DNA from: Pollenia angustigena
Lineage: Eukaryota; Arthropoda; Insecta; Diptera; Polleniidae
NCBI GenBank assembly: GCA_930367215.1
Contig: OV884057.1
Location: 201,799,621-201,863,620, forward strand
Direction: 5' to 3'
DNA length: 64,000 nt
In this document: positions 3,310-59,363 of the stretch, piece after piece
How the letters are laid out: the number at the start of each line of letters is the position of its first letter
Position numbering within the stretch: the stretch's first letter is position 1
Made by a program: the position numbers and the translations under genes
Notes under the pieces: generated by a model
The model's database searches: none
The model's input: the letters and a program-made list of their open reading frames with translations, nothing else
Told to the model about the DNA's origin: nothing

Positions 3310-3920
3310 GTAGGTTAGGTTAGGTTCCATTGGCAGCCGTGATCAAGCACAGCTTACGTGGGTCCCGTTGTGTTTCCATATCACACCATCTCCCATGAGT
3401 CCTATGTTATCTGGCTGCTAGTATTCTCATGCACCAGAGAGACAAGTTTTGTCCCCAAAGGCTCTTCGACAAACATTTCGAGTCTTAAATCTCCGAATGC
3501 CGGGCAATTACAGAGAAGATGTTCGGTTGACTCTTCCTCTTCCTCATCGCCGCATCTTCTACACAAGTCATTGTAAGGGAGCCCCAGCCTCTGGGCGTGC
3601 CTCCCAATGGGCCAGTGGCCGGTAATAACCGCAATTAGGTTTCTTAGATGATGTCTGGACAGCTGTAATGCCCGCCGTGTCCTTTTTTCAGCTATGATGA
3701 GCCAGATTTTCCCACAGGTAGTTTCATCGTGCCACCTCTGACTGGCAATAAGATGAAACTTGTGCGCTATAAGTTGCTTACACCTTGGGAGTGAAGCACC
3801 TACATTATATGTGGAACCGTCCCGATTCAAGATGGTACCTGCATACGCCATGTATGTCCCCATTTCCGGGGACCCAATTAAGAGTGACCAGTGAATGTCC
3901 CGCTATCTCCTATCTCCAGT
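3310..3920 (-). pseudogene. 3' fragment of an RNase H-bearing non-LTR retrotransposon
   Basis: Minus-strand translation begins in one frame with GHSLVTLNWVPGNGDIHG, similar to the end of a retrotransposon RNase H domain. It switches frame to read YNVGASLPRCKQLIAHKFHL and then LSRHHLRNLIAVITGHWPIG, RHAQRLGLPYNDLCRRCGDE and STEHLLCNCPAFGDLR, a Cys-rich C-terminal module (CxxC...H...C) typical of I/LOA/R1-like elements with RNase H. The 3' tail on the minus strand ends in AACCTAACCTAACCTA at 3,311-3,326. The upstream RT is absent, as expected for 5' truncation. Confidence 0.75.
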
Positions 3921-4400: not shown

Positions 4401-5135
4401 AAGAAACCCCTTACGAAAATAAATTGTTTTACGATATTAAATTAAAAAAAGTTAATCTTTCGATGTTATAAGATATTTTTAAATTGCAAAAAGAATAAGA
4501 ATTTTTGCTAAAGAAAATTATACGATATAAAAATTATCTTGAAGAAATTCTTACGATATAAAATTTTTTTCAAGAAATTTTTACGATATTGAAATTTTTC
4601 TAGAGATATACTCACGATAATACGTTTTCTATAAGAAAATCCTTATTTTTTTAATTCTTTCGATATAAGCGCTTTTTATAATTCTTACGATATTATAACT
4701 AACCCTCCTGACTGTTAAGGTACGTTTTCAGTATAAAGATTTTCTTAAACAAAAACTTTCTTAAAGAAAATTTTACGATATAAAAATTTCTTCAAAAATT
4801 TTTGAAGAAATTTTTACGATATTAAAATTTTCCCTACGATATTACTTTAAGAAGATCCTTTTTTTAATCTTTTGCTATTAGGTTTTTTAATCTAGCGATA
4901 TTTTAATTTAAAAAAATTTTATGATATTAAAAATTTTCTTTAAGAAATTCTAACGATATAAACAATTAAGAAAAACCCTAATATTAATAATAACCTTAAA
5001 GAAAATCGTTTGATATTAAATTTATTTTAAAGACAATCTTACGATATAAACATATTTCTTACGATATTAAAACTTATTACCAAACAAACCCTAATGATTT
5101 TAGCATTTTCTTATAGAAAATCTTAAGATGCTAGA
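4400..5135. repeat. Degenerate array of TTACGATATAAA-type units
   Basis: Units such as TCTTACGATATAAAAATT and TTTTTACGATATT recur roughly every 30-60 bp, mixed with AAGAAATT spacers. The style resembles the interior of the Tigger-like arrays at 36.7, 62.5 and 26.0 kb, but the unit differs and termini were not found. Confidence 0.5.
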
Positions 5136-27860: not shown

Positions 27861-28714
27861 TAATTATTGCAGATGACAGTAACATTTGCCATTCGTACTC
27901 ATATGAATGCAGACCAATGATGAATAATACGCTTGGCCGTGACCTTGACATAGTCTCGGTATGGGGTCGTGCAGATAGTGTCGATTTTATTTCCCGAAAA
28001 CCCCAATGTTGCGTGCTGACCCATAAACGCCCGACAAATTAAGGTGCCTCATCTGTATATTATATGGGTGGTATAATTATTGAGGAATACGAATCTTTTG
28101 ATGTTCTGGGCATGAGAATACAATGTGATGTCCGATGGACAGAACATGTATTCAAGGTGTCGAAAGAAGCATTCAAGTTCCTCACTTTTTAAAGACGGTA
28201 TAAGATGAACTTCACTCCATCTGATCTCCTTACTATTTATACCACCTTTATACGACCGCGTATGGAATACAACTCTCATGTGCGGGCCGGTGCTTCAAAG
28301 TCTATTTTGGAGCTTCTCGACCGGGTGCAGGAGAGGGCGAAGGTTCTCATTGGTGACAGAAGGGTATACAATTCTATTGATTCCCTTGAGCACTGTCGAA
28401 ATGTGGGTTGTATTTGCCTGTTTAATCGTTACTACAATGAAATATGTTCTGACGAAATTAGGGATGTGGTTCCCGAAACCCGAACGTTTGCTCGTAATAC
28501 ACGTTTTTCCTTAAGAAACCATCCCTATTGTGGTCGATTGGCTGGTGAATCGTACAACGCATTACAGAAAGAATTCGTTTTTTTCCGGACTGTTCGTATG
28601 TGGAATAATCTTCTTGCGGAAGTCTTCCCTTTCACTTACAACATGATTAAGTTCAAATCGAATGTTCACAAAAACTACTCCCTCTATCCTCCTTCCCACA
28701 ACCTATTTTCCTAG
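27857..28714 (+). pseudogene. Non-LTR retrotransposon reverse transcriptase, C-terminal part
   Basis: A single frame of 286 codons with two stops (28,040-28,042 and 28,190-28,192) starts at the RT catalytic box IADDSN (family form YADDS; 27,866-27,877). It reads through FDVLGMRIQCDVRWTEHVF, then TIYTTFIRPRMEYNSHVRAG (family: FIRPxxEYxSHVW), LLDRVQERAKVLIGD, LEHCRNVGCICLFNRYY, TFARNTRFSLRNHPYCGRL and FFRTVRMWNNLLAEVFPFTY to the stop at 28,714. This is the thumb/C-terminal half of a Jockey/CR1-type RT. The 5' part is truncated at the ADD box. The 3' end is near 28,790 with CTAACAGAAAAAAAAG. Confidence 0.82.
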
Positions 28715-46087: not shown

Positions 46088-48072
46088 CACAGTGGGAAAT
46101 TTTACGAGAAGGCGGTCAAAATTCCATAACTTTTGACTGGATCGGCATTTTTTTATGCGATTTTTTTTGCTCGATAGGTGCGATGTTAGGCTTCAATTTG
46201 CATTTTCATTTTTTTGTTGAGTTTCGGTGTAAAAGTTGAATATTTCACATATGATTTTTTTATAATTTATCATTATTTCTCTTGTATTTTACAACTGATA
46301 CTTATTTTTTTTATTGTCGAACTTAGATCCTGTCAGAAAATGCCAATATTTGGCCCCTGTAAATTTTTTAGTCCCAATATTCACAGGGGCCAAAGTTTGG
46401 CTTTTTTGGGACGAGACGAGTTGTTATAAGGATAAAACTGAAAAGGAATATTTTGAAAAATGCCCAAATAGCATTCTTGGATCTGATGTGCACAACAAAA
46501 TAGTAATAAGATCTTCATTAGTACAACATATGGACATTTTTCTTGTGTTATGCTCGCGGAAGAACCTGTAGTCTTTGTTCCTATTTTCTTGCGCTTCTTC
46601 AGATAGATCTCCAATTGGTAGCATATTGTGTTGAACTATTTGTTCCCCATGGTATAAAATTTTATGAACTGTGATTGGCATACGTCTCCAAGAGTATTTT
46701 TTGTTATAAAGAATTGCTGTTTCATTTGCATACTGGCCAAATTTTTTTGCATTTATCTTTCTGCTACATGATATAACTTGTAAAATGATCTGGAATCGTC
46801 TTATTAATTCAAAATGTACTCCTGTGATAGATGCTGCAGTTTCTGGATCGGAAAAGAATCTCCTTGCAGTGTTTCCATCATTTGAATTTCCTTCTCCTTG
46901 TTTTGGCTGATCAATTATAAGGCCTAGGTGAAGCTATTTTTCTTGAATTTGTTTTTTTGTTTGCTTCCTTTTTTCCACATTTTCTTTGTTTTTTCTCACT
47001 GTTTCGCCTAAATCATAGCCCAATTTAAGAATATGCTCCATAAAACGAATTCTGGTATGAAGAGGGGACATTCCAAATTCGTATGCTTCATTGAAACTAT
47101 TGTCTTGTGATGGGGGTTGGCTTAATTGACTTGATGTCTTTTTGCATATGGTACAGCTTGACGAAGACTTTGTTTCGGTTAATGCTTGTGCAACTTTTCC
47201 ATCGATCATTGTAAGGAACATTTGAAAATTAATTTCAATGCATTGGTCATCAAATTTAAATATTGCCGGTTGAAGTTCTTTAATTTGATCTTTTATTTTT
47301 CGAACTTCTTCAGTTATGACATCTTTAGTTTCCTTTTTGTAAACAAACTTTATTGGTCTGCAATACTTTGTTGAAGAAGGAATTTCATTTTCTATACATC
47401 CATTTCTGTAACTCTACCGGTTGACGGCTCTAAGCCAACATAAATTTTTCTTAAACGTAATGGAACTAAAGATACCATGAATAAGTTAGCATCATCTTTA
47501 ATTTCAGTAATGTTTCCTTGCAGGACTTATTTTTTGAACCGAATATCTTACCTTGGGTCACAGAAATTGCTGTAGTGCGCAAGGCCGTATCCAGATGTGT
47601 GTACAATGGGGTATAGAAATGTAGGTAAGATTCTGGACTACAAGAGAGTATACATTTTTTTTTTGACGCGTTTTGACGGGCAGGACTTATGCTCTATAAA
47701 GTAGGAAATTTCCGGGAAATTTTGACATTAAAAAAAATAAATTAAATAGTTCTAGAGGTCGCAGAGTTTAATGCTTTAAACCACCAGCTAATAAAATAAA
47801 CTAATACACAAAACTTATTCTGTCAAAAAATCTTAAAAAACAAAAAAGTTATGAGCATTTCAACTTCAAAAATTGACTCAGAAATTGAAAACTATAACCA
47901 AATATTGAGAAAGTCCATTTCGGATCACCCTGTTCTCAATGAAATAGTTGACATAGGGTTGAAATTTTTTGGCTCCCGAGGTTTACTAGTATTTACTTTC
48001 ACATGAATAAAAAAATCGGAGAACATAAAAAAAAATAATTTTGGCCGCCTTCTCAAAATATGAACCAGTGTG
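46088..48072 (-). mobile_element. Transib-type (RAG1-like) DNA transposon, 1,985 bp
   Basis: The left terminus reads CACAGTGGGAAATTTTACGA. The right terminus, read inward on the other strand, is CACACTGGTTCATATTTTGA. A block at TIR positions 19-36 (GAGAAGGCGG, Y, CAAAATT) is the same at both ends except one base, and 28 of 36 terminal bases agree. The element is flanked by a perfect GC-rich 5-bp duplication, CGGCG, at 46,083-46,087 and 48,073-48,077. Five-base GC-rich duplications and CAC...GTG ends are hallmarks of the Transib superfamily, the relatives of RAG1. The left heptamer is identical to the V(D)J recombination-signal heptamer CACAGTG. The minus strand carries the remains of a RAG1-core-like transposase. 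The element is shorter than a full Transib and looks non-autonomous. Confidence 0.85.
46424..47540 (-). pseudogene. Decayed Transib / RAG1-core-like transposase (C-terminal part)
   Basis: Reading from about 47,540 down to the TAA at 46,424-46,426, the product resembles the RAG1/Transib catalytic core. An upstream piece (FMVSLVPLRLRKIYVGLEPS) is in a different frame. From 47,413 one frame runs through IPSSTKYCRPIKFVYKKETK, then MIDGKVAQALTET and SSCTICKK, to a TAG at 46,934-46,936. It continues in frame for 169 codons through NDGNTARRFFSDP, MPITVHKILYHGE, LSEEAQENRNKDY and CTSDP. Compared with RAG1 as remembered: the Asp of MIDGKV corresponds to D708, Cys-x-x-Cys (47,144-47,155) to C727/C730, His-Lys-Ile-Leu-Tyr-His (46,649-46,666) to H937/H942, and the Glu of QENRNK (46,586-46,588) to E962. 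The region holding the first catalytic Asp (D600 equivalent) is not visible. One stop and at least one frameshift make it non-functional as read. Confidence 0.82.
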
Positions 48073-48077
48073 CGGCG

Positions 48078-56935: not shown

Positions 56936-58449
56936 AACACATTTTTGGATTAACCATTAACACATTTTGGCTTAACCATCTACGGGCTCAAAACTATAAT
57001 ATCGGAATTTTTTTCTAAAATTCTTGCAGTCTTGAAATTTAGAATAACGGTGTATTTTGATACTCCTTAAAGACGTTTCATTGGTTTTAGAAACCCACCA
57101 TGACCTTCATCCATTCAAATTTTTTTATAAATTTAAATTTTCGAAATACTAACGGAATTCTGTTACACTTTCAAACGTTACAAGCAATTTTTATTCATTT
57201 TTTTTTTTTTTTTTTTGTTATTTAAAAAAAGGCAAAATCCTGAAGAGGCAAATGATTTTTCTAGAGAAGTACTTTGCTTCCTCAATAAAATGCCATTCAA
57301 AATAATTTCTAAGCGAAATTTTTGTAAATAATCCAAGGAATTAATGCTAATCACAACGTATTTCTAACCACAAAGTAAAGGAGTACCATGGGGCCTGACA
57401 AAGTAGAACTAATTTAGGTTCCAAGCACTGCTTTTAAAACTATTTGTCTTATAATTATCTAATATTTTATAGAAAAAAATGCCAAAATGTTGGATATATT
57501 TAGTTCTTAAATTAAAGTTTTTGGTTTATGTTCTCTTGAGGAGTTCTCGGTACTCCACAAAATGGGTTTTTTAATTGTCTTCAAAAAGAATCTTAATTAA
57601 AAACTTCTTGCCACATTAATTAATCTTCTGGCACACTCTTTAAACAAGAGGCAATAATAAAAATTATCCAGGAATTATAAAACTCAAAACCCAAATAAGT
57701 TCCTTAAGTACTTTTTTCACCTTCACTCATACTTTTTTTTTTTTTTTTGGTGGGGAGGAGACACTTATTTAAGTTCTTCACTTAAGTTTCCTCAAGTGTT
57801 TATGCAAGAGAAAACAATAAAAAAAAAGTGAAAACAAACGAACAAAAAAGTTGACATTTTTTCACACACATTATACAACATACTGGGGCAAACTTACGTC
57901 AAACGAGGTTTAAAGTTTCCTTTTTTTTTTTTTTTTTTATTAAGTTTCTGAAGTGTTTGTTCTGTTTCATAAAATATTAAATAGCTTTGGGGGAATAATA
58001 CTTAATTCCTCAGCGTGAATTACAAGTGTTAACAAGTGTAATATTTAGTTGTTGTTTATTATTTTTTTCTTACTTATTTTATTCTTTAAGTTGTTGTTGC
58101 TTTAGTTGCAAAAATAGGTTACCAAAGAACAGTCGTCAGTCAGCAGCACACATGTTGCCCAAACACGTCAACGACATGCAATAACAATCAACAACATGTT
58201 TTAAGGTTTCTTAAAGAGTTTAGCCAAACGTTTCTTTTGCAGGGAATTAAGAATAAAATGCCACTAGGCAAAATCTTTGAAAAGTTGTTAAAATAAAATT
58301 TAAAGATTTTTATATAGAAATTATTAAGTAAGGACCAGCAAACATTTTAGATGAAATTTAAGTAATTCAGCAAAAACAAGCGATAGTTTTAACTTTACTT
58401 TGGCAAATAGCTCTATTGTCAACTTTCCTTTCCTAAGTGCCAAAGGTGA
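56936..58449. other. AT-rich stretch, nothing recognised
   Basis: T-runs are at 57,199-57,216, 57,731-57,748 and 57,920-57,938. No PH-domain first exon or promoter could be identified. Confidence 0.4.
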
Positions 58450-59363
58450 AACTATTATCTTTTGGCAAGACTGGTTTAAACAGCTGACGCACGTTTCGTG
58501 TTTTGTTTCACTGTCAAACATCTTGAGTTTGGTATATAATTTAACCATGAATCGTCTTACAAACGAACAACGCTTGCAAATTATTGAATTTTATTATCAA
58601 AATGCGTGCTCTGTTAAGAAAGTTAATCGTGCGCTTATTGTGTTCAGCGACGAAGCTCATTTTTGGCTCAATGGGTACGTTAATAAGCAGAATTGTCGAT
58701 TTTGGAGTGAAGATCAGCCAGAAGCATTTCAAGATCTACCAATGCATCCAGAAAAAGTCACAGTTTGGTGCGGTTTATGGGCTGGTGGCATCATTGGACC
58801 GTACTTCTTTAAAGATGATGCGAATCGTAACGTAACTGTGAATGGTAAGCGCTACCGTGAGATGATATCCAACTTTTTTCTGCCCAAAATGCAGAAATTG
58901 ACTTGCATGAGATGTGGTTTCAACAAGACAATGCCACATGCCACACATGACGCTTAACAATGGACTTATTGAGAGGCGAGTTCGGTGAACATTTTATTAC
59001 ACGTTCGGGACCGGACAATTGGCCGCCTAGATCGTGCGATTTAACGCCTTTAGATTATTTTTTGTGGGGCTATGTTAAAGCTCATGTCTGTACACACATG
59101 CCCGCTTCAATTGACGCATTGGAAGACAACATTGAAGCATTTATTCATGAGATACCAGCCGAAATGTTGGAATGAGTATGCCAAAATTGGACTAAGCGGA
59201 TGGACCATTTGAGGCGCAGTCACGGTCAACATTTGCATGAAATAATCTTCAAACATTAAATTATATGGACCGTACTAACGATTAAAATAAAAATTTCATG
59301 CATTTTTCTGAATTTTTTTTTTTTTTTTTTTAACTTTCCTATAGCTCTTAAAAAATCACCCAT
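58450..59363 (+). mobile_element. DD41D mariner-like element, internally deleted (copy B)
   Basis: This is the same family as the element at 7.67 kb, in the opposite orientation. The start region (CAGCTGACGCACGTTTCGTG, then MNRLTNEQRLQIIEFYYQN) and the right terminus (CCTATAGCTCTTAAAAAATC at 59,339) match copy A. The left-most 20 bases are poorly conserved. An internal deletion of roughly 385 bp, relative to copy A, joins NRALI directly to VFSDEAHFWLNGYVN near 58,640, removing the second HTH region. The catalytic FSDEAHF motif is intact here, including the Trp that is a stop in copy A. The frame breaks near KMQKLTCM (58,891), and a TGA at 59,173-59,175 interrupts EMLE*VCQNW. It is non-functional. 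Confidence 0.87.
58547..59260 (+). pseudogene. DD41D mariner transposase pseudogene (copy B)
   Basis: The reading frame from 58,547 is open to 58,957, but only because of the deletion and a frame change. The second segment (MDLLRGEFGEHFITRSGP at 58,960 and CDLTPLDYFLWGYVKAHV) holds the third catalytic Asp. The QQDGATCHTA box is split by the frameshift and a premature stop region around 58,905-58,957. The C-terminus RMDHLRRSHGQHLHEIIFKH follows the stop at 59,175. The shift near LPKMQ sits at the same site as in copy A. Confidence 0.82.

Follow-up and report, generated by a model that had tools for sequence, protein, structure and literature searches.

The window, by which we mean the whole 64,000-nucleotide stretch of DNA that was analyzed, comes from the cluster fly Pollenia angustigena (Polleniidae), in agreement with the preliminary description, which was made from the sequence alone and took its host to be a fly. 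ND2 of the mitochondrial contig is 100% identical, after rounding, to records of both P. angustigena and P. rudis. The window carries an internally deleted Transib element, with the following features:

46088-48072, minus strand (that of the transposase remnant): Transib element of 1985 bp, internally deleted, recognized by its ends, its transposase homology and its copies elsewhere in the genome
46083-46087, no strand: left copy of the target-site duplication, CGGCG, read directly from the sequence
48073-48077, no strand: right copy of the target-site duplication, CGGCG, read directly from the sequence
46088-46123, plus strand: terminal inverted repeat at the gene-3' end, CACAGTG + 11 bp + GAGAAGGCGGTCAAAATT, found at 441 genomic sites when up to 3 mismatches are allowed
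48037-48072, minus strand: terminal inverted repeat at the gene-5' end, CACACTG + 11 bp + GAGAAGGCGGCCAAAATT, found at 445 genomic sites when up to 3 mismatches are allowed
47495-48036, minus strand: 5' non-coding part of the element, 92-95% alike with five compared copies
47395-47494, minus strand: short transposase piece (DANLFMVSLVPLRLRK...) directly after the lost first Asp, recognized by comparison with fuller copies
46937-47413, minus strand: middle transposase remnant, found with phmmer, with the second catalytic Asp (47201-47203) and C-x2-C (47144-47155)
46478-46933, minus strand: C-terminal transposase remnant, found with phmmer, with H-x4-H (46649-46666) and the catalytic Glu (46586-46588)
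47490-47494, minus strand: main deletion junction, where the 5' non-coding part is joined to position 882 of the reference frame of copy L026; about 1.4 kb is gone
46478-46480, minus strand: second deletion junction; about 250-260 bp of the fuller copies is gone, including 123 nt of the coding end
about 47011/47012, minus strand: 15-bp deletion (5 codons) in the middle remnant, from the alignment to fuller copies
46934-46936, minus strand: in-frame stop TAG, codon 486 of the L026 reference frame
47387-47394, minus strand: stop TAG at codon 328 (47392-47394), then loss of 1 bp from an A run, from comparison with the L026 frame

The coordinates of the element, its perfect CGGCG duplication and its inverted ends were as first described, and an inverted-repeat search recovered the same pair of ends. 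The two 36-bp ends are identical at 28 of 36 positions, a score that was equaled or exceeded in 2 of 200,000 trials with pairs of 36-mers drawn at random from the window. The matches are distributed as the preliminary description had it, with a shared 18-bp block in register (17/18) after a heptamer (6/7) and a non-conserved spacer (5/11). The termini had also been described as CAC...GTG starting with CACAGTG, which is true of the left end and not of the right end, which reads CACACTG. An imperfect hairpin (46337-46406), with 31-nt arms that are 84% complementary and an 8-nt loop, also lies in the non-coding stretch on the gene-3' side of the element.

Database comparison with phmmer bore out the homology expected of the coding part: the frame at 46424-46933 matched 6pqn_A with an E value of 1.7e-45, and that at 46934-47413 matched the same chain with an E value of 7.3e-22. 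We take PDB 6pqn to be the Hztransib transposase; the entry itself says only 'putative DNA-mediated transposase'. Because both window pieces match 6pqn with the residues in question aligned, we regard the remnant's second Asp, its Cys and His pairs and its Glu as real and as homologous to those of Transib transposase. C-x2-C and H-x4-H are present in our alignment A1 as well as in the 6pqn alignments of the window pieces. In the catalytic triad, the second Asp and the Glu are kept and the first Asp is deleted. Counting along the 6pqn alignments with a constant offset of 17 leads to D126, D225 and E436, the same catalytic residues as are given for Hztransib in PMC6941560. The RAG1-type residues named in the preliminary description (Asp of MIDGKV, CxxC, HxxxxH and Glu) are all present, but split over two frames, 46937-47413 and 46424-46933. 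The coding span claimed for them, 46424-47540, holds in part: the match to the family frame covers 46478-47494, and the remainder lies past the two deletion junctions. Reading 46424-47540 in frame 1 was rejected, this frame being wrong and riddled with stops.

With the main deletion, nucleotides 1-881 of the L026 reference frame are lost, the first catalytic Asp included, and, relative to copies L014, L022 and L026, the two sides of its junction overlap by 5 bp, which would fit end-joining or aborted gap repair. The element had been called degenerate, and, carrying two stop codons, one frameshift and three deletions, it is so damaged that it could be moved only in trans. Judged from its reading frames, the window copy is dead and encodes no working enzyme.

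Recovery of other copies through the ends, as had been proposed, was successful: the end patterns occur at the hundreds of genome places given above, and the reversed patterns, used as a control, at 0 places for both ends. With the whole element as query, 84 matching places were obtained (best 40 of 1795 candidates scored), and 20 copies were fetched, drawn from the 40 scored rows and mostly the best of them. Both ends were recognized in 10 of the 20, the other 10 being without both under the pattern used. Seven of the 10 bounded copies are 3.3-4.5 kb long and three are 1.9-3.0 kb, and all 10 have identical 5-bp flanks. When the window element and a further copy, L061, are added, all 12 elements for which both ends were found show identical 5-bp flanks, representing 11 distinct sites, 10 of them CGNCG and one CGAAG. 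Likewise, the five bases before the gene-5' end are CGNCG in 25 of 30 cases (the first 30 of the 445 ends). CGNCG is a stated Transib target in PMC4735498. A Transib match, copies with the same termini and 5-bp duplications around the examined copies are thus all in place for the element first described. Some ends deviate: CATACTG is found in L010 and L018, and CACGCTG in L014. The flanks of L010 and L018 are alike (100% over 177 bp, 99% over 672 bp), so these two represent one insertion, duplicated. Both lie in a 33-kb stretch, C5:92913000-92946194, that holds three near-equal Transib copies, and their having the same flanks within that stretch points to a local segmental duplication.

On these grounds, namely the transposase homology, the D-D-E triad found in the family, CxxC and HxxxxH, the CGNCG 5-bp duplications and the CAC ends, we assign the window element to the Transib superfamily. 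The strong Hztransib match, the heptamer-like ends and the 5-bp duplications uphold the identity first proposed for it.

Coding capacity is best preserved outside the window. The 609-aa frame of L022 (P0066) matches 6pqn with an E value of 1e-105, is homologous over residues 124-601 and aligns at all three catalytic positions; the match starts ahead of the first Asp (SKWGCDGSSG) and ends close to the C terminus. The preliminary description had suggested looking for an N-terminal half that retains the first Asp; such a half exists in other copies (KWGCDGS; L022 and L061), and has been deleted from the window copy. A protein search of the genome gave at least 87 transposase matches (best 72 of 11,841 candidates), among which one alone, in L061, has 678 open codons without a stop. 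L061 is 3808 bp long, has both ends with CGGCG on each side, retains the first Asp and encodes 677 residues from the first Met. The catalytic D, D and E are all present in L022 and L061. L061 reads MIDGT, in place of the DGK found in 9 of 9 site-spanning sequences of alignment A1, so that it may be active but need not be. According to PMC4411706, a genome typically carries a single autonomous Transib copy, or a few at most. The intact copies found here do not contradict that statement, because there is one uninterrupted frame among the at least 87 matches.

The 20 fetched copies differ from their majority sequence by 0.48-1.80% (mean 0.94%), and the window copy by 1.28%. This low divergence is partly a selection effect because the 20 copies were mostly the best of the 40 scored rows; older copies are under-represented in the sample, and the matches of the protein search reach down to 70% identity. 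Single-change codons over 21 sequences comprise 65 synonymous and 247 non-synonymous changes, which by rule of thumb, rather than against a computed expectation, corresponds to roughly unconstrained change. We conclude, with little room for doubt, that a Transib family expanded recently in Pollenia angustigena and that the window element is a dead, internally deleted copy of it. A further reading, which we entertain as a possibility without expecting it to be the case, is that the family is still moving, with at least one uninterrupted copy that codes for the enzyme, deletion forms mobilized in trans, ends by the hundred and several dozen coding copies.

The RAG1-like DDE transposase of the family would bind the CAC-starting ends of the element, would, by analogy with published Hztransib work, cut at the heptamer border by nicking and hairpin formation, and would insert at CGNCG targets, leaving 5-bp duplications; the deleted window form would have moved with transposase supplied by other copies. 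The main junction and its 5-bp overlap are common to the window copy and L009, which lies 1.2 Mb away. L009 carries a CGACG duplication of its own, and comparison of the 1.3-kb flanks on either side of it with the window flanks revealed no similarity. Since this junction recurs in L009 beside foreign flanks and a separate duplication, it is probable that the deleted form transposed at least once, in trans, after losing the enzyme.

Ends were also paired: 99 gene-5' and 100 gene-3' perfect ends were taken, and partners were sought within 8 kb. The resulting 54 pairs include 13 of 1.90-2.00 kb and 26 of 3.0-4.6 kb. One junction, 650/2711 of L026, recurs in 9 of 30 sampled gene-5' ends (L032, L037, L042, L043, L045, L046, L051, L056 and L058), and 7 of these 9, the 7 in which the far side was reached, contain 435-524 bp of interior without an L026 match. 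This approximately 1.95-kb form is an amplified non-autonomous Transib, distinct from the window copy; it was rejected as the source of the window copy, the two having different junctions. Short MITE-like copies were rejected as well, a second end within 1.5 kb being found for 0 of 30 sampled gene-5' ends; the shortest of the 54 pairs, at 1242 bp, does fall under that limit.

The window copy may itself be a member of a working non-autonomous line that was moved, and perhaps amplified, by the transposase of others, and on balance we incline, if only slightly, to this reading. Both of its ends are intact, its main junction recurs in L009 amid unrelated flanks and with a separate duplication, and the approximately 1.95-kb form demonstrates that another deletion form was clearly amplified (one junction in 9/30 gene-5' ends, 13/54 pairs of 1.90-2.00 kb). 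However, the window junction is shared by L009 alone among the 20 fetched loci and occurs in none of the 30 sampled gene-5' ends, some of which are interrupted before that point, so this deletion form is rare. Moreover, L009 holds about 729 bp that is absent at that place from the window copy and from L026, and the sharing of the junction could also stem from gene conversion.

Relatives outside Pollenia were sought with the C-terminal piece of the window and with P0066, for the latter considering the best 120 of 782 matches above the cut-off, from 7707 candidates. The nearest among the matches listed are P0001, a 202-aa fragment filed under the moth Eumeta japonica that is 86% identical over 91% of the C-terminal piece of the window, and P0067, a 487-aa fragment that is 83% identical over 70% of P0066. 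The full-length relatives P0068-P0073 (673-679 aa) are 57-59% identical over 97%, and the two of them that were aligned, P0068 and P0071, have the same catalytic motifs. Hztransib of Helicoverpa zea (6pqn) has a homologous transposase, as its match to P0066 and the three aligned catalytic positions indicate, but by identity it belongs to a separate family, the Helicoverpa armigera protein P0146 being 41% identical to P0066; the window copy differs further in having no first Asp. A recent horizontal entry of the family into the cluster fly, for example from or to Lepidoptera, would account for the 86% identity of the Eumeta japonica fragment and for the low divergence among the examined copies. 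P0001, however, lies on a 16.5-kb contig and may stem from a parasitoid fly that contaminated the moth assembly, and we consider such a transfer conceivable but somewhat improbable.

V(D)J recombination signals have the consensus heptamer CACAGTG and a nonamer. The left end of the element equals this heptamer, whereas the right end, CACACTG, differs from it. The best nonamer-like match lies at a spacer of 21 on both ends and reaches 6/9 and 5/9; a score of 6/9 also turns up in 32% of 46-mers drawn at random from the window when the same range of spacers is searched. A V(D)J-like arrangement of heptamer and nonamer with 12/23 spacers was therefore rejected, the spacer being the same on both ends and the nonamer at chance level, and the layout reminiscent of a recombination signal in the preliminary description is less well borne out, one end departing from the heptamer and the nonamer match being no better than chance. 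The spacer layout is within the published range, since PMC8355894 gives symmetric 20-22-bp spacers for Transib ends.

The proposed relation to RAG1 stands, through the Transib match with RAG1-type residues. The core of vertebrate RAG1 resembles the C-terminal remnant in that H-x4-H and Glu align in a phmmer comparison; it differs in that RAG1 chains reach an E value of 0.039 at best with 46424-46933 and in that no RAG2-like gene was found among the frames described below. The Pfam RAG1 profile (PF12940) gave 14.4 bits (E 0.01) with the C-terminal piece, which is under the curated cut-off of 25 bits, and naming the element by this profile was rejected on that account; among the P0066 matches at E values up to 1, Pfam RAG1 was absent. 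That Transibs in general have heptamer-like ends, 5-bp duplications and RAG1-type residues is already in the literature (PMC4411706, PMC8355894 and PMC6941560, among others), and the accepted link between Transib and RAG1 is unchanged by this element.

We consider it exceedingly improbable that the element belongs to the RAG-like (RAGL/ProtoRAG-type) transposons, with their RAG1L-RAG2L pair, and so stands nearer the direct V(D)J ancestor. In favor of this reading, the DDE, CxxC and HxxxxH plan and the CAC ends are shared, and P0066 weakly matches amphioxus RAG1L (6b40) with an E value of 0.00076; against it, the E value for Hztransib is 1e-105. Besides its two transposase pieces, L026 (3721 bp) has 7 frames of at least 60 aa, the longest of 94 aa. 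A Pfam scan found no kelch or PHD domain in 6 of the 7, the remaining one (4691-4879, 62 aa) reaching outside the element, and membership in RAGL was rejected for lack of a convergent RAG2-like kelch-PHD gene in the 6 of 7 frames scanned, a search by frames of at least 60 aa that would miss a gene of short exons.

Judged by protein relatives rather than by a Repbase or Dfam consensus, what is new here is at most the family or subfamily; the superfamily is a known one. No description of a Transib of Pollenia was found in the open-access literature, and the words 'Transib', 'transpos' and 'repeat' do not occur in the P. angustigena genome note (PMC11437293). The number and youth of the copies are mildly notable, the many broken ones above all, the element being otherwise ordinary for a well-known superfamily. 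What it adds is a Transib family of Polleniidae that is both large and young. With so many near-identical copies, the ends, the choice of target and the non-autonomous derivatives that go with a RAG1-like transposase could be studied in bulk. Were the family still moving, it could serve as a naturally occurring model for an active RAG1-like enzyme and the unequal ends on which it acts.

Other open frames in the window also resemble mobile elements. A frame of 200 aa at 58355-58957 (plus strand) is presumably a fragment of a mariner-type transposase, and those at 3402-3902 (minus strand) and 28193-28714 (plus strand) look to us like pieces of non-LTR retrotransposons. Elsewhere in the genome, two full-length nuclear matches to COX1 (C1:83922913-83924253 and C1:83944034-83945374) lie about 21.1 kb apart, and both have the same 466-codon frame and 11 TGA codons as the mitochondrial contig. 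The mitochondrial genome is 21.01 kb long according to PMC11437293, and because the spacing of the two matches is near that length, the pair may derive from whole mitochondrial genomes inserted recently, in tandem, into nuclear DNA.
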